Shown in pieces: positions 16,833 to 31,897 of a stretch of 41,534 nt of DNA. Each line of letters begins with the position of its first letter. The first letter of the stretch is position 1. The position numbers and the translations under genes were made by a program. The notes under the pieces were generated by a model. It made no database searches. It had not been told where the DNA came from and saw only the letters and a program-made list of their open reading frames with translations. The stretch comes from Acidobacteriaceae bacterium (lineage in GTDB: Bacteria; Acidobacteriota; Terriglobia; Terriglobales; Acidobacteriaceae): the NCBI GenBank assembly GCA_003140075.1, contig PLIO01000111.1, forward strand, positions 11,301 through 52,834. Direction: 5' to 3'.

Positions 16833-17594
16833 ATGTCCCGTAAAGCTACTACATCCCGAACTGCGATTGAAGATCCCATCGCATCCGACACCGCCGCGAC
16901 CAAGGCCGTCCAGACTCAGGATGCTGGCAAGAAAGCCGCGAAAAAGAGTGCCGGATCGCTCGACGACCTGGCGCGCACTGCGCTCAAAGCGTTGCTCATC
17001 GCTCGCGATGCCGCTTCGAACGTGCCCGACCTGCTGACTCACTCCTCGCGCATGGCTTTCCTGGCGATCAAGGAGTGCGAGCAGGAACTCGACGTCATTG
17101 AGCGCTACATCGATGAGCGGCTGCCGGCAGCCATTACGCGAGTGAACGAAGCCCGGGCGCGCCAGTTGTTGACCAGTCTGAAGTGCACTACGGACCTGGA
17201 GCGCATCGGCGACCTCATGATGAGCGTGGCCATGCGGGTGCAGTCTCGTACGGCGAAGATGGGCGCTTCCGATGTCCGCCAGTTGGTGGAAATGTCGGCA
17301 ATCCTGCGCGAGATGCTCGATTTGGTTTATCGCGGCTTCGTCGATCTCGATCTGGAATGCGCCCGCAAAGTTTTGCAAATGGATAAAGACATTGATCGCG
17401 TCTGTCACGCAATGTTCCAGAAACATCTGACCGAACACGCGACGCAAAGCAATCCTTCGAGCTTTGATGTGCTATTAATGGCGCAGGCCCTGGAGCGCGC
17501 CGGGGACCACACCACGAATCTGGCAGAAGACCTCTACAGTCTCATCGAAGGCCGCAGCCTGCGGCACGCGCCCAAGAAGCGGGCAGCAACGTAA
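16833..17594 (+). CDS. phoU: PhoU-family phosphate signalling regulator
   Basis: 253 residues. After a roughly 40-residue Ala/Lys-rich N-terminal extension come two three-helix PhoU repeats. Metal-binding signatures are CTTDLERIGDLMM in the first and QALERAGDHTTNLAEDL in the second, with the family's typical C-terminal ending IEGRSLRH. PhoU damps phosphate uptake and PhoR/PhoB signalling by contacting the Pst transporter and the sensor kinase. No pst genes are in the window, but a PhoB-like regulator lies about 700 bases downstream on the same strand. A four-helix-bundle gene with inverted arrays sits between them, as if inserted into a former phoU-phoB unit. The extension is unusual relative to Escherichia coli PhoU. 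Confidence 0.88.
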   Translation: MSRKATTSRTAIEDPIASDTAATKAVQTQDAGKKAAKKSAGSLDDLARTALKALLIARDAASNVPDLLTHSSRMAFLAIKECEQELDVIERYIDERLPAAITRVNEARARQLLTSLKCTTDLERIGDLMMSVAMRVQSRTAKMGASDVRQLVEMSAILREMLDLVYRGFVDLDLECARKVLQMDKDIDRVCHAMFQKHLTEHATQSNPSSFDVLLMAQALERAGDHTTNLAEDLYSLIEGRSLRHAPKKRAAT

Positions 17595-17597
17595 GAA

Positions 17598-17616
17598 CCA
17601 GTTCTCAGTTCTCAGC
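17598..17616. repeat. Left inverted heptad array of the four-helix-bundle unit
   Basis: CCAGTTCTCAGTTCTCAGC starts 4 bases after the phoU stop. Its exact reverse complement can be formed from the right array at 18128-18168. The unit is AGTTCTC (the complement of GAGAACT). Confidence 0.7.
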
Positions 17617-17731
17617 TTCATGAGGCGATGCTTGCTGGGTGATGCGGATTCACGGTTTTCCGGTGGAGCCATGTTCAGATGTCACAGACCGCAAGAAGAC
17701 CTTGTTGCGAGCATCTTCATGGAGGACTCAT

Positions 17732-18094
17732 ATGGGCGAGTCATACAGGGATTTGATCGCATGGCGCAAGGCAATGGATCTGGTGACAGACATTTATCGG
17801 GTGACCCGATCTTTTCCGCGAGATGAACTCTACGGCTTGACGAATCAACTTCGAAGAGCAGCCGTCTCCGTGCCCAGCAACATCGCGGAAGGCCAAGCCC
17901 GTTTTTCGCCGAAGGAGTTCCACCACTTTCTGAGCCATGCGCGAGGCTCATTGGTCGAAATTGAGACTCAGCTCACAATCGCTCAAAACCTTGACTACCT
18001 GAGTCCAGACCTGGCCCAACCCGTGCTTGATAAAGCAGCAGAGTTGGGCAGGGTTCTCAATGGGCTCATCGCCTCCATCAAGTCTGCGGCGTGA
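17732..18094 (+). CDS. Four-helix-bundle protein (23S rRNA intervening-sequence/Avd-like)
   Basis: 120-residue all-helical protein with the family signature: LIAWRKAMDLV at the start, DELYGLTNQLRRAAVSVPSNIAEG in the middle, then a helix with SHARGSLVEIETQL. The family (TIGR02436) is known from ORFs inside 23S rRNA intervening sequences and from Avd accessory proteins of diversity-generating retroelements; its biochemical role is mostly unknown. The start at 17732 has GGAGG with 6 nt spacing. No reverse transcriptase or template/variable repeat pair is visible nearby. The gene is framed by inverted AGTTCTC/GAGAACT heptad arrays and interrupts the phoU-phoB neighbourhood, which suggests a small mobile unit (inference). 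Confidence 0.88.
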   Translation: MGESYRDLIAWRKAMDLVTDIYRVTRSFPRDELYGLTNQLRRAAVSVPSNIAEGQARFSPKEFHHFLSHARGSLVEIETQLTIAQNLDYLSPDLAQPVLDKAAELGRVLNGLIASIKSAA

Positions 18095-18127
18095 AGGCTG
18101 GCAAACGCGGGTGCTCGGTTTTGCGTT

Positions 18128-18168
18128 GCTGAGAACTGAGAACTGAGAACTGAGAACTGAGAACTGGG
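18128..18168. repeat. Right inverted heptad array of the four-helix-bundle unit
   Basis: Five copies of TGAGAAC with a 7-bp period, beginning GCTGAGAAC on the inner side and ending AACTGGG on the outer side. This mirrors the shorter left array at 17598-17616. Confidence 0.75.
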
Positions 18169-18295
18169 AACCGCTTCCGAAATTCATCATTCATTCACAC
18201 GCGAGAAACACTCTCGCAACATTCTCAAAATAGAGTCGAAGCGGTACCCAGCGCACACCAGGCTCACTCTGGGGCCAAGCCGTATTTAGGTGACG

Positions 18296-19048
18296 ATGCA
18301 CTCCCCCACTGGATATTACGAGCCGCTCGGCGATGCCGGCATCGCGGCGGTGTCACGTTCTCTTGTCTTCGTGGTCGAAGACGAAGGAGATATCGCGCGG
18401 CTGATCTCCCATAATCTGCAGGCTGCCGGTTTTGACGTGCAAAGCTTTGTGAGCGGCGGATCGGTGGTTTCCGAAGCTCTGCGGGAAATGCCCTCGCTCT
18501 TTCTTCTGGACGTGATGCTGCCCGGCGCGGACGGTTTCGACCTTTGCCGCCAGATCCGGCAGACTCCGACTCTCTCCTCCACACCCATTATTTTCCTGAC
18601 CGCCAAGACCGCCGAGGCCGACCGGGTGAAGGGGCTCGAGATGGGTGGGGACGACTACATCACCAAACCCTTCAGCCCGCGCGAGCTGGTGGCCCGGGTT
18701 CGTAGCGTGCTGCGCGGCTTGCGTAAACCGCCGGAGACGCCGGAGGTGCTTCGCCTCGGAGGTCTTGAAATCGATGCTGCTTCAATGACTGTGCAGGTGG
18801 ATGGGCGAGCGGTTCTGACCACCGTGCGAGAATTCCGTCTGCTGGAGTATCTGGCTACGCACTGCGGCCGCGTGCTCACGCGCGACCAGTTGCTGGACGC
18901 GGTATGGAAGGAAACTCCCTTTGTAACGCCGCGCTCGATTGACGTTTATGTGCGGCGGCTGCGGGAGAAAATAGAGATCGATCCTCGCCATCCAAAATAC
19001 CTGAAAACTCTGCGCGGCATCGGCTATCGCTTCGAATCCCCCAAGTAG
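18296..19048 (+). CDS. OmpR/PhoB-family response regulator
   Basis: 250 residues. The N-terminal receiver domain begins LVFVVEDEGD (acidic pocket), has the phosphoacceptor Asp in FLLDVMLPGADG, the conserved Thr in IIFLTAKT, and the Lys in DDYITKPFSPREL. The C-terminal winged helix carries VLTTVREFRLLEYLATHCGRVLTRDQLLDAVW and ends LKTLRGIGYRFE, typical of PhoB-like DNA-binding regulators. ATG at 18296 has AGGTGA just upstream; an in-frame GTG at 18290 is less likely. No partner histidine kinase is in the window. Location after phoU supports a role in phosphate response, but that is inference. A heptad-array hairpin follows the stop codon directly. Confidence 0.9.
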   Translation: MHSPTGYYEPLGDAGIAAVSRSLVFVVEDEGDIARLISHNLQAAGFDVQSFVSGGSVVSEALREMPSLFLLDVMLPGADGFDLCRQIRQTPTLSSTPIIFLTAKTAEADRVKGLEMGGDDYITKPFSPRELVARVRSVLRGLRKPPETPEVLRLGGLEIDAASMTVQVDGRAVLTTVREFRLLEYLATHCGRVLTRDQLLDAVWKETPFVTPRSIDVYVRRLREKIEIDPRHPKYLKTLRGIGYRFESPK

Positions 19049-19147
19049 AAAAGCAGTTCTCAGTTCTCAGTTCTCAGTTCGGGATGCGCGTTTCAGGTTG
19101 GGGCTTTTACTGAGACCTGGGAACCGAGAACTGAGAACTGCCCTTTT
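19049..19147. repeat. Near-empty inverted heptad-array hairpin
   Basis: The left arm at 19049-19080 contains AAAAGCAGTTCTCAGTTCTC and further copies. The right arm at about 19109-19147 ends GAGAACTGAGAACTGCCCTTTT. The arms are the same AGTTCTC/GAGAACT units that frame the four-helix-bundle gene, but only about 28 bp separate them. It begins immediately after the regulator stop codon and may double as a transcription terminator. Confidence 0.7.
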
Positions 19148-26738: not shown

Positions 26739-26812
26739 AAAACAGTAGCTAGTTGCCAGTACCCAGTTGCCAGAAAAGACCTAACTGGGTACTGACAACT
26801 GGGTACTGTTTT
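26739..26812. repeat. Inverted heptad array filling the imuA-imuB gap
   Basis: The left arm 26739-26773 and the right arm 26783-26812 (AACTGGGTACTG units) pair around a 9-nt spacer. AAAACAGTA at the left edge matches TACTGTTTT at the right. The right arm ends one base before the imuB ATG, so imuB has no ordinary Shine-Dalgarno. Confidence 0.7.
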
Positions 26813-28404: not shown

Positions 28405-28482
28405 ATTGAGTCATTGAGTGATTGAGTCATTGAGCGATTGGGTTGCAAATGGCCCGATCACTCAATCACTCAATGACTCAAT
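28405..28482. repeat. Inverted 8-bp-period array at the imuB-dnaE2 junction
   Basis: The left arm consists of ATTGAGTC-like units at 28405-28444. The right arm at 28455-28482 is built of the complement (GACTCAAT). The short spacer is GCAAATGGCC-like. The right arm includes the first two bases of the dnaE2 ATG at 28481. Confidence 0.75.
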
Positions 28483-31400
28483 GTATATCGAGCTTCACGC
28501 CCGCTCCGCGTTCAGCTTCCTCGAAGGCGCTTCCTTGCCTGAGGAGTTGATGTCAGCCTGTGCCCGGCTCGACATGCCGGCCATGGCATTGCTCGATACC
28601 GACGGAGTTTACGGTGCGCCGCGCTTTCATCTGGCAGCGAAGAAACTCAGGATCAAAGCGCACATCGGCGCCGAAGTAACATGCCAATCTTTTAGACCTG
28701 TCATCCTGAGCGGAGCAAATGCTTCACGAAGTGAAGCACTTGCGGAGTCGAAGGATCTCTATGCCCGGCACGCTATTCATGGCATCGATATGCCTCGCTC
28801 TGCTCGGAATGACAAACACTTCCGTCTTCCCCTTCTCGTTTCTTCCCGTGCGGGTTATCAAAACCTCTGCCGCCTGATCACCCAAATGAAGTTGCGCGCG
28901 AAAAAAGGCGAGGGTGCAGTTCAGAAAGAAGAGCTGGAAGAGCAGGCCCACGGCCTCATTTGCCTGACCGGGGGCGCGGACGGCCCGCTGGCGACCGCCT
29001 TACGGCATGGCGGCGTCGAGGCAGCGCACAAGCAAGTCGAACAACTGGTCGGGATATTTGGTCGCGGCAATGTCTACGTCGAATTGCAGCGTCATTTTCA
29101 TCGTGACGAAGAAGCTCGCAACCGCGCCGCTATTGCAATTGCCCGTTCGCTCAATCTTCCTCTGCTCGCGACCAATGGCGTCTGCTACGCCACTGCGAAA
29201 GACCGGGAACTCTGCGATGCCTTCACCGCCATTCGCCATCACCGCACGCTATCGACCGCCGGTCGGCTGCTTGCGCACAACTCCGAGCGCGACTTGAAAT
29301 CGCCGCAAGAGATGCAGCAACTTTTCGCGGACCTGCCTGAGGCGCTCGCCAATACGCTCGAACTTTCATCGCGCCTCGAATTCACGCTCAACGATCTCGG
29401 ATATGAGTTCCCCCGCTATCCCGTCCCCGAAGGCGGGACTATGAATTCATTTCTGCATGACCGCGCGTGGGAAGGTTTTCGCCAGCGCTACGGCCGGGCC
29501 GCACTCGAAATGCAAACCCGTGCCCGTCGCCAGATTGAGCGCGAACTAGCCCTGATCGAAAAACTTAAGCTCGCCGGATATTTCTTAATCGTCTGGGATC
29601 TGATCCGCTTCTGCCGCGAGCAAAATATTCTGGTGCAGGGGCGCGGATCCGCCGCCAACAGCGCCGTCTGTTATTCGCTGGGCATCACGGCCGTCGATCC
29701 CGTCAGCATGGAACTTCTCTTCGAGCGCTTTCTATCGGAGGAGCGCGGCGAGTGGCCCGACATCGATCTCGACCTGCCCAGCGGCGACGAGCGCGAAAAA
29801 GTTATCCAGTATGTTTACCGCCGCTATGGCGAGCGCGGCGCGGCCATGACGGCGAATGTCATCACCTACCGCAACCGCATGGCGGCGCGCGAAATGGGCA
29901 AGGCTCTAGGATTCGATCCGGAAACGCTCAGCAAAATTTCCGCCGCCGTCGCCACCTGGGAATTTCGCGACGAAAACGACGCACTCGACCGCCGCTTCCG
30001 CGATGCTGGACTCGACCTCAAGCATCCGCGCCTGCGTAAATATTACGAGTTGTGTCTTGCCGTGCAGGATATGCCGCGCCATCTCGGCCAGCACTCCGGC
30101 GGTATGGTGATTTGCCAGGGGCAACTCGATTCGGTCGTGCCTCTCGAACCCGCGTCCATGCCCGGCCGCGTGGTGGTGCAGTGGGATAAAGAAGATTGCG
30201 CCGACATGGGCATCATCAAAGTCGACCTGCTCGGCCTGGGCATGATGGCCGTGCTCAAAGATTCCATCGAACTCATTCGCGATCACTACCACGAAGAAGT
30301 CGACCTGGCGCATCTTCCGCAGGATGATCCCGTAGTTTATTCCGCGCTGCAGCAGGCCGACACCGTGGGCATGTTTCAGGTGGAAAGCCGCGCGCAAATG
30401 TCATGCCTGCCCCGCCTGCGGCCGAAAAAGTTTTATGACATCGTGGTGCAGGTCGCCATCATCCGGCCGGGGCCGATCGTCGGCCAGATGGTAAATCCTT
30501 TTCTGCAGCGGCGCCAGGGACGCGAAGAGGTCACGTATCCGCATCCTTTGCTCGAGCCGGTGCTCAAACGCACGCTGGGCGTGCCGCTTTTTCAGGAACA
30601 ATTGCTCCGTCTCGCCATGATCGCGGCCAACTTCACAGGCGGCGAAGCGGAAGACCTGCGCCGCGCCATGGGTTTTAAGCGGTCGCAGGCGCGCATGAAA
30701 GAAATCGAAGCCAAGCTGCGCGCCGGCATGACGAAGAATGGAATCTCTCCCAAAGCGCAGGAAGAAATTATTCTTTCCATCACATCTTTCGCGCTTTACG
30801 GATTTCCCGAATCGCACGCCGCCAGCTTCGCGCTCATCGCATATGCCAGCGCGTATTTGAAATGCCGCTATCTCGCTGCGTTCACCGCCGCCCTGCTCAA
30901 CAACCAGCCTATGGGGTTTTATTCTCCAGCAACGATCACGAAAGATGCGCAGCGCCATGGATTAAAAATGCTGCCGGTGGATGCGACGAAATCAGATTGG
31001 CTCTGCACTTTGGAAACAGTGGCCAGTGACCAGTGGTCAGTGGCCGGTGAATACACAGCCGCAGAGTGGCAAAAGAATATGGCTCTACGCCTGGGCTTGC
31101 GTTACGTTCGTGGCTTACGCGAAGAAGGCGCTCAAGCGCTGGCGCGCGAGCGCAGGCTTGCTCCGTTCACTTCTATTCACGATCTCACTCGGCGCGTTCC
31201 GGAACTGCGCAAGGACGAACTTACTACGCTGGCGGAGATCGGAGCGCTGAATTTCGTATCTAGTACCGAGTCCCCGGCACCAGGATTCCTCCGCCCCTCG
31301 CATTCGCCCGGGGGTCGGAATGACAAGGTTTTAACTGGCCACTGGCAACTGGGTACTGGCAACTGCTTTTCGAAGCTTCACCGCCGCGACGCTCTCTGGC

Positions 31401-31897
31401 AGGTGGAACGCGCGGTGCGCGGCTCCGGGCCTCTGCTGGAAAAATTGCCCGAGCCCGATTTGCCTTCTCCGCTCCGGCCTATGAACCACGAAGAGCGACT
31501 GGTCGCCGATTTCCGCGGCACTGGGCTCACTGTGGGACCGCATCCCATGGCTTATCGCCGCGACTGGCTGAATGCCATGGGCATTCGCCGGGCCAGCGAA
31601 CTCCGCAACCTTCCCAGTGGCAAGCGCCTGCGCATTGGAGGCTGCGTCATTACTCGCCAGCGTCCGGGGACCGCCAAAGGTTTTGTGTTTGTCAGCCTGG
31701 AAGATGAAACCGGAGTGGCCAATGCGATCATCGCTCCCGACCTGTTTCACCGCAACCGCCTGCTGCTGACCTCAGAGCGGTTTCTGGCCATCGAAGGCAT
31801 TCTGCAGAATCAGGACAATGTGATCTCAGTGAAAGCGGAACGCGTGCTGCCGCTGTTCGTCACGAAAGCGGAAACCACTTCGCACGATTTTCACTGA
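28481..31897 (+). CDS. dnaE2: Error-prone DNA polymerase III alpha subunit DnaE2
   Basis: 1138 residues, longer than the usual 1020-1080. PHP domain at the N terminus (ELHARSAFSFLEGAS). Polymerase core with GRGSAANSAVCY and the catalytic PDIDLD (Asp427, Asp429, Asp431). C-terminal OB fold (LRIGGCVITRQRPGTAKGF). It is the catalytic member of the ImuA-ImuB-DnaE2 translesion mutasome. Extra length comes from in-frame repeat-derived inserts at residues 74-111, about 846-855 and about 927-963, all outside the catalytic aspartates. The start at 28481 is where homology begins; an in-frame GTG at 28418 would translate the junction repeat. No ribosome binding site precedes either. Confidence 0.93.
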   Translation: MYIELHARSAFSFLEGASLPEELMSACARLDMPAMALLDTDGVYGAPRFHLAAKKLRIKAHIGAEVTCQSFRPVILSGANASRSEALAESKDLYARHAIHGIDMPRSARNDKHFRLPLLVSSRAGYQNLCRLITQMKLRAKKGEGAVQKEELEEQAHGLICLTGGADGPLATALRHGGVEAAHKQVEQLVGIFGRGNVYVELQRHFHRDEEARNRAAIAIARSLNLPLLATNGVCYATAKDRELCDAFTAIRHHRTLSTAGRLLAHNSERDLKSPQEMQQLFADLPEALANTLELSSRLEFTLNDLGYEFPRYPVPEGGTMNSFLHDRAWEGFRQRYGRAALEMQTRARRQIERELALIEKLKLAGYFLIVWDLIRFCREQNILVQGRGSAANSAVCYSLGITAVDPVSMELLFERFLSEERGEWPDIDLDLPSGDEREKVIQYVYRRYGERGAAMTANVITYRNRMAAREMGKALGFDPETLSKISAAVATWEFRDENDALDRRFRDAGLDLKHPRLRKYYELCLAVQDMPRHLGQHSGGMVICQGQLDSVVPLEPASMPGRVVVQWDKEDCADMGIIKVDLLGLGMMAVLKDSIELIRDHYHEEVDLAHLPQDDPVVYSALQQADTVGMFQVESRAQMSCLPRLRPKKFYDIVVQVAIIRPGPIVGQMVNPFLQRRQGREEVTYPHPLLEPVLKRTLGVPLFQEQLLRLAMIAANFTGGEAEDLRRAMGFKRSQARMKEIEAKLRAGMTKNGISPKAQEEIILSITSFALYGFPESHAASFALIAYASAYLKCRYLAAFTAALLNNQPMGFYSPATITKDAQRHGLKMLPVDATKSDWLCTLETVASDQWSVAGEYTAAEWQKNMALRLGLRYVRGLREEGAQALARERRLAPFTSIHDLTRRVPELRKDELTTLAEIGALNFVSSTESPAPGFLRPSHSPGGRNDKVLTGHWQLGTGNCFSKLHRRDALWQVERAVRGSGPLLEKLPEPDLPSPLRPMNHEERLVADFRGTGLTVGPHPMAYRRDWLNAMGIRRASELRNLPSGKRLRIGGCVITRQRPGTAKGFVFVSLEDETGVANAIIAPDLFHRNRLLLTSERFLAIEGILQNQDNVISVKAERVLPLFVTKAETTSHDFH
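28700..28813. repeat. GTCAT-type interspersed repeat inserted in frame in dnaE2
   Basis: 114 bp (38 codons) with imperfect inverted ends GTCATCCTGAGC and GCTCGGAATGAC. It encodes residues 74-111, between GAEVTC and RLPLLVSSRAGY of the PHP domain. The same head occurs at 12335, and a likely tail recurs at 31315-31323. Confidence 0.75.
31017..31044. repeat. Heptad array inside dnaE2
   Basis: Four 7-bp units CAGTGGC, CAGTGAC, CAGTGGT, CAGTGGC encode about ten residues near position 846 (TVASDQWSVA), in the segment after LLPVDATKSDW. Confidence 0.65.
31259..31368. repeat. Composite repeat insert near the 3' part of dnaE2
   Basis: A GTCAT-family-like segment ending CGGAATGAC (31315-31323) is followed by five heptads ACTGGCC, ACTGGCA, ACTGGGT, ACTGGCA, ACTGCTT (31334-31368). 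Together they encode an in-frame, Gly/Ser/Pro-rich stretch of about 37 residues before HRRDALWQVERA. Confidence 0.6.

Follow-up and report, generated by a model that had tools for sequence, protein, structure and literature searches.

In a 41,534-nucleotide stretch of Acidobacteriaceae DNA (here called the window, meaning that stretch at its full length) a short gene of the S23 family lies between inverted arrays of a seven-nucleotide repeat, and the question raised by this locus is whether gene and arrays together form a mobile element and what part the encoded protein might play in it. A sequence-only reading had proposed such a unit, with nearby gene-less arrays as the MITE-like derivatives of an autonomous element, and its description of the locus proves accurate. 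Inverted arrays with matching units (17599-17615 and 18129-18171) enclose only the S23/Avd-like gene, profile matches and coordinates place the unit between phoU and a PhoB-like gene, a near-empty copy of the arrays is present close by, and no transposase is encoded within the element.

The S23 element and the array-only elements of the window

The left terminal array (17599-17615, forward strand) consists of 2.4 copies of the unit CAGTTCT (CAGTTCTCAGTTCTCAG) and lies 4 nt past the stop codon of phoU (16833-17594, forward strand). It is followed by an internal leader that extends from the array to the S23 start codon (17616-17731, forward strand), with GGAGG just 5' of the ATG at 17732, and then by the S23 gene itself (17732-18094, forward strand), which encodes a 120-residue protein. 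The right terminal array (18129-18171, reverse strand) contains 6.1 copies of the CAGTTCT unit in inverted orientation, namely five exact copies of GAGAACT, the number given in the sequence-only reading, and then one variant unit; the PhoB-like response regulator gene (18290-19048, forward strand) is the right neighbour. Both neighbours are host genes identified by profile matches, that of the left neighbour to PhoU being above the Pfam cut-off and below the NCBIfam equivalog cut-off. AGTTCTC/GAGAACT occurs 20 times in the window versus 4.19 +/- 2.07 times in 100 dinucleotide-preserving shuffles, none of which reached 20, and a terminal stem is predicted from the paired arrays.

Profile searches place the protein in the S23 four-helix-bundle family (the 23S rRNA-intervening sequence protein family), with 132.1 bits against PF05635 (cut-off 33.8) and 126.7 bits against TIGR02436 (cut-off 24). 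It is related to Xanthomonas XCC0516, of known structure (2gsc; 94 bits, E 6e-26), and its matches to the Avd and bAvd profiles are weak (32.1 and 30.9 bits, both below the cut-offs). S23 is the sole gene between the arrays by ORF list and profile search, with no transposase inside the element; in particular, the flanked gene is not a Y1 transposase, the type of gene expected between REP/RAYT repeats. There is no reverse transcriptase among the neighbouring genes scanned, as would be expected of a diversity-generating retroelement, and the location between phoU and the PhoB-like gene is not that of an intervening sequence (IVS) inserted in an rRNA gene.

The near-empty copy, which had been put near 19049-19147, lies between the PhoB-like gene and ppc and begins 5 nt past the stop codon of the regulator. 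It is an array-only, MITE-like element with a left arm (19054-19080, forward strand) and a right arm (19109-19140, reverse strand) separated by a 28-nt loop, and the whole of 19054-19140 is predicted to form a single long hairpin (-48.3 kcal/mol, z -5.7). CAGTTCT ends are common to the S23 element and to paired gene-less copies, the relationship seen between autonomous elements and MITEs. Three further paired arrays with other units are present in the window, at 26743-26811, 28405-28484 and 31012-31365. That at 26743-26811 (no strand assigned) has CAGTTGC/CAGTACC units and is just 5' of an imuB-like (IMS) gene, and that at 28405-28484 (likewise without strand) has an 8-nt unit (ATTGAGTC) and is at the junction of the imuB-like and dnaE2-like genes; units like ATTGAGTC also flank a second, lower-scoring S23 subfamily (L272 and L277). 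The third comprises inverted heptad arrays (31012-31046 and 31333-31365) about 290 nt apart within a DNA polymerase III alpha-like ORF (28418-31897), and as the array at 31012-31046 is inside the HHH_6 match of this ORF, it seems to be translated.

Matching arrays at S23 genes in other genomes

Flanks of S23 genes were compared by a motif-free test, in which the upstream flank is aligned with the reverse complement of the downstream flank and the best local alignment is scored. The source genome has ten PF05635 matches corresponding to nine loci (one gene is split). Every one of the nine is flanked by short tandem arrays in inverted orientation whose units match between the two sides, with scores of 17 to 26.5. 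The units differ between loci and include CAGTTCT, AGTACCC, GTCGTTG, GTTTCAAG, CAGCACT, AGCTTTT/GGCTCTT and CAGAAGT, together with one ATCGGG-type and one ATTG-type unit. The expectation that AGTTCTC arrays accompany S23 genes fails as worded: the fixed motif belongs to one element type only, and what recurs is a pair of inverted arrays with differing units. We reject a fixed CAGTTCT motif, as the other S23 loci of the source genome carry other units. At L006/L010 (G000:C112) the S23 gene is split over two frames and the paired arrays are retained.

A related set of 41 genomes yielded 114 PF05635 rows, 108 of them above the cut-off and representing 107 loci, of which 103 are testable (76 with 350-nt flanks and 27 with 450-nt flanks; L084, L258, L264 and L281 have too little flank). 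Scores of at least 14 were obtained at 89 of the 103 (67/76 and 22/27, the 27 including many broken genes), and 67 of the 76 exceed the 95th percentile of cross-locus flank pairs, with a median of 20 for matched versus 9 for mismatched flanks. A distant set comprises 85 loci, namely the best 80 of 580 retrieved with a protein-only query and five from 24 plasmid records, with 81 testable against mismatched flanks and 80 in the longer-flank controls. Judging by their titles, the best 80 of 580 span over 15 groups of phylum rank as well as a single group of archaea, the Methanophagales, and with the five plasmid loci added, 67 of 81 are above the 95th and 55 of 81 above the 99th percentile of mismatched pairs.

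Arrays occur at S23 genes more often than by chance, as had been anticipated, whether the comparison is with neighbouring ORFs or with random windows of the same loci. Scores of at least 16 were reached by 60 of 76 related and 53 of 80 distant S23 loci, but by only 2 of 193 and 9 of 316 neighbouring ORFs (Fisher p 3e-42 and 5e-36, respectively) and by 0 of 380 and 6 of 400 random windows, the distant values in each case being for the best 80 of 580 and the plasmid loci. One of the two related-set exceptions is the PhoB-like gene of the window, which is flanked by two CAGTTCT elements. The best lag is 7 in 61 of 67 related and 50 of 64 distant scored loci, and 8 in 5 of 67 and 11 of 64 (distant loci again from the best 80 of 580 plus plasmids); about one fifth of S23 loci, such as L058, L067, L069 and L107, are without a clear array pair. 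We judge an autonomous copy to be roughly 0.5-0.7 kb long, with S23 between inverted tandem arrays of a unit that is mostly 7 nt and sometimes 8 nt, and regard these as a widespread family of very small elements, each with its own unit, identical at both ends.

Several loci have additional features. S23 lies between very long imperfect arrays (>100 nt) at L161 (a Planctomycetota MAG) and L166 (a Neomarinimicrobiota MAG), and on a plasmid of Anabaena sp. 90 (L192) an array-flanked S23 gene is positioned between cas6 and cas4 in a type I-D CRISPR locus; S23 genes adjoining cas4 and cas6 have been remarked upon previously (PMC3936711). Of the 85 distant loci (best 80 of 580 plus plasmids) 20 were searched with Rfam and none has an rRNA match, and an rRNA-gene location for S23 elements is rejected on this count. 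A CRP-like palindrome, TGTGA-N6-TCACA, is present 62-98 nt upstream of the S23 match at L005, L007, L009, L049, L050, L052, L091 and L094, corresponding to 8 of 77 related loci and 0 of 196 control windows; with 0 of 81 distant loci (best 80 of 580 plus plasmids) having it, it is rejected as a general S23 feature.

The unit is also related to the protein. At non-homologous sites S23 identity predicts unit similarity (r 0.18 over 1643 pairs, a value reached in 0 of 2000 permutations), and S23 pairs at least 70% identical (n=7) have a mean of 6.3 of 7 unit matches, versus about 3.6 for those less than 60% identical. The 61 related heptads share a simple grammar, R-G-N-N-N-Y-N, with G in 60, a pyrimidine four positions later in 61 and a purine right before the G in 59; their information content is 4.9 bits versus a letter-shuffled maximum of 3.4. 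The effect is weaker in 50 distant heptads (4.2 bits versus 3.8 shuffled; best 80 of 580 plus plasmids). The strand of the unit relative to the S23 gene is fixed and non-random. Variant units also tend to come in the same order in the left and right arrays, and in permute-and-realign comparisons this effect is modest (p 6e-6, n=51; p 0.002, n=47).

Dispersed copies, sites and alleles

Array-only copies are far more numerous than S23 genes and abound in genomes with the cognate S23, a tendency with exceptions; the hits counted are overlapping 14- or 16-mers rather than elements, and the p-values ignore phylogeny. There are 48, 43, 176 and 40 hits to the CAGTTCT 14-mer in four carriers, whereas the 21 remaining genomes of the genus have a median of 4 (p 0.002, ignoring phylogeny), an exception being G014, with 77 hits and no detected cognate S23. 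For AGTGCTG the carrier genome accounts for 58 hits, one further genome has 3 and 39 have none. The pattern for GGCTTCC is mixed: the carrier G004 has the most hits (17), the carrier G015, with an imperfect unit, has none, and three genomes lacking a GGCTTCC-type S23 have 11-12. Reversed-pattern controls gave 0 or 1 throughout.

GGGAATC heptamers have been described as dispersed in Xanthomonas, many of them as convergent pairs and with their source unexplained (PMC4692102). According to the same account they are mostly transcribed and near stop codons, 90% of those examined are between the same ORFs in two species, and they are generally not found with mobile elements (PMC4692102). Our prediction, set beforehand, that GGGAATC would flank XCC0516-like genes was borne out at the X. 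vasicola locus. In a sample of 35 Xanthomonas genomes (36 S23 rows, 30 loci tested), all 30 tested loci have paired arrays of the GGGAATC, GGGATTC or GGGACC type. Thirty of the genomes have an S23 match above 100 bits (G079, with an in-frame stop in S23, is counted among these carriers), and their median number of GGGAATC hits is 96.5, versus 12, 15, 41, 0 and 25 in five genomes with a degraded, split or missing S23 (p 0.0004, ignoring phylogeny); G095 has zero arrays and no S23, and the values of 41 and 25 are from G091 and G100, with no detected cognate S23. The GGGATTC share is 0.35 in 11 genomes with a GGGATTC-type S23 versus 0.16 in 15 with a GGGAATC-type S23 (p 0.0008, ignoring phylogeny), a comparison covering 26 of the 35 genomes, with types assigned from alignments and GGGACC-type and S23-less genomes left out. 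S23 is tied here to this unexplained heptamer repeat, and the link is made in the present work.

Four genomes have a CAGTTCT-type S23 element: in G000 and G015 it lies between phoU and phoB, in G002 and G011 at other sites. The proteins are 75-80% identical, the flanks in G002 and G011 have no homology to the phoU site, and the G002 and G011 loci share homology on one flank. These differing sites would fit either movement or an old duplication followed by loss.

Empty-site alleles in relatives, for which the sequence-only reading had asked, do exist, with array-only and array-free alleles at phoU-phoB and array-free alleles at phoB-ppc, in species too far apart for a base-by-base alignment of the junctions. 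Classed by eye in 22 genomes of the genus, the phoU-phoB interval contains S23 in 2 and gene-less paired arrays, with several different units, in 7; another 4 retain short or one-sided relics, 4 are array-free, and in 5 the locus contains no PhoB. The phoB-ppc interval is array-free in 8 of the 8 relatives in which the two genes were found adjacent; in G012, G017 and G004 (L204, L205 and L208) a dispersed palindromic repeat (TGTCATCC-GAGCG ... GGATCCTTCGACTC) fills this gap. Many S23 elements are old, sharing a site in several species, with the units at both ends drifting together, and because vertical descent has kept many loci in place, movement would be slow. Six of ten source-genome elements (contig-end elements and those beyond 30 fetched loci being left out) are within 16 nt of the 3' end of a gene. 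At L092 and L105, compared with L093, similar S23 genes share a site and the upstream and downstream flanks have exchanged places around the gene, as inversion of the element between its arrays would leave them.

Interpretation and comparison with known systems

We propose, with a probability of roughly 0.7, that the S23 elements are a REP-like mobile family, in which S23 is the cognate and probably non-enzymatic mobility factor and the array-only copies are non-autonomous derivatives; the binding, the catalyst and the transposition are steps that we infer. We know of no catalytic activity of S23. Pentameric S23 would bind the heptad arrays of its own element, in the form of a DNA cruciform, a single-strand hairpin or a paired-array RNA stem, and would bring the two element ends together, in a hairpin or a synapse, after which the element may be copied or inserted by host replication or repair enzymes, frequently right behind the 3' end of a gene. 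Gene-less paired arrays such as 19054-19140 would be mobilised in trans. XCC0516 is reported to be a pentamer (PMC4990558), and a pentamer would suit the binding of repeated units. The earlier proposal of an autonomous element with MITE-like derivatives fits insofar as the unit tracks both the protein and the dispersed array-only copies; it does not fit in respect of the transposase, which is absent. A broader formulation, to which we give somewhat less than even odds, is that these constitute a new class of mobile element without a nuclease, transposase or reverse transcriptase of its own, in which pentameric S23 would read a private heptad code (core R-G-N-N-N-Y-N in these Acidobacteriota) and the host would copy the hairpin to new intergenic sites, many heptamer repeats and the S23-bearing rRNA IVS perhaps being its products or branches.

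The main rival, which we consider unlikely, is that S23 acts as a regulator by sequence-specific binding to RNA or DNA, the dispersed arrays being its binding sites (for example 3'-UTR stems for termination or mRNA stability) and those at its own gene autoregulatory, with spread by slippage or conversion rather than by S23. Such a role would account for the unit going with the protein, for the strong predicted RNA hairpins and for the closeness to gene 3' ends in six of the ten source-genome elements, and the mostly transcribed Xanthomonas repeats near stop codons (PMC4692102) agree with it. It does not easily explain why nearly every S23 gene has matching ends and yet almost all elements differ in their unit, nor the array-free sites in relatives, and S23 elements are also found on plasmids and in archaea, as selfish elements are. 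Considerably less probable is that the arrays are the true mobile or repeat elements and owe their movement to an enzyme unrelated to S23, for instance a reverse transcriptase or a transposase of the Y1 (RAYT) type, and that S23 is an often-captured passenger. Array-only copies do greatly outnumber S23 genes, and the S23-related protein Avd acts together with a reverse transcriptase (PMC10053308), but a passenger is not expected to predict the unit. Moreover, among 30 S23-carrying genomes searched (mostly isolates, drafts included, from the genomes of the best 80 of 580) there is no match to RVT_1 in 14 and none to Y1_Tnp in 8, with neither matched in G041, G050 and G055. Because carriers without RVT_1 or Y1_Tnp exist, neither enzyme is supported as an obligate partner of S23, as far as draft genomes tell. 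Tandem heptads are common in bacteria (PMC4692102, PMC4679880), and the arrays could in principle be chance or slippage products of low-complexity intergenic DNA whose pairing is meaningless; this is refuted by the controls, as mismatched flanks, random windows and neighbouring ORFs almost never score so high and the reversed pattern gives 0 or 1.

A role for S23 in mobility, the reading we prefer, would join two observations that have stood apart: S23 structures have been solved (2gsc and 2rld) and the family named, with a role lacking, and heptamer repeats have been described, in Xanthomonas and in other bacteria, without a source. Joining them provides the first concrete and testable hypothesis for both, namely that each S23 protein is expected to bind the heptad that flanks its gene and to be what makes arrays of this unit spread. 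We found no paper linking S23 genes genome-wide to heptad arrays in the open-licence literature, which is not proof of absence. If true, mobile elements without a recognisable recombinase of their own would form a class distributed across many phyla of bacteria and one or more groups of archaea, and a recognition code might be deduced from its many natural pairs of protein and repeat.

In REP/RAYT (TnpA-REP) systems a gene is flanked by inverted dispersed short repeats, and there are many gene-less copies near gene ends. The S23 elements are similar in having inverted dispersed repeats around a gene and many gene-less copies, and differ in both components, a four-helix S23 protein taking the place of the Y1 transposase and tandem heptad arrays that of the REP sequences. 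Avd of the diversity-generating retroelements is of a related fold family, as reflected in the weak Avd and bAvd matches; unlike in Avd systems, there is no reverse transcriptase among the scanned neighbours, and RVT_1 is absent from 14 of the 30 S23 genomes. Heptameric repeats are also present in Nostoc, and TAACTGA repeats in Beggiatoaceae, and these and the Xanthomonas repeats resemble the arrays described here in being dispersed tandem heptads; those of Xanthomonas commonly form convergent inverted pairs and lie close to stop codons (PMC4692102, PMC4679880). The published Xanthomonas account differs from ours in mentioning neither XCC0516 nor S23 in the text available to us (PMC4692102).

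The 23S rRNA IVS with an S23p ORF, such as that of Coxiella, share the protein family, the short element and the inverted ends. In the Coxiella IVS, tandem GACAGAT heptamers, whose number varies between strains, lie ahead of the S23p ORF, and RNase III cleaves the stem (PMC4990558); that the S23p ORF serves mobility is an older idea, from 1993 (cited in PMC4990558). Known IVS are in rRNA genes, whereas the window element is between phoU and a regulator gene, and genome-wide array-only copies and per-element units are not described for IVS in the available text of PMC4990558. If the IVS elements are counted as a known kind, the S23-heptad elements would form a new branch of it, and a much larger one.
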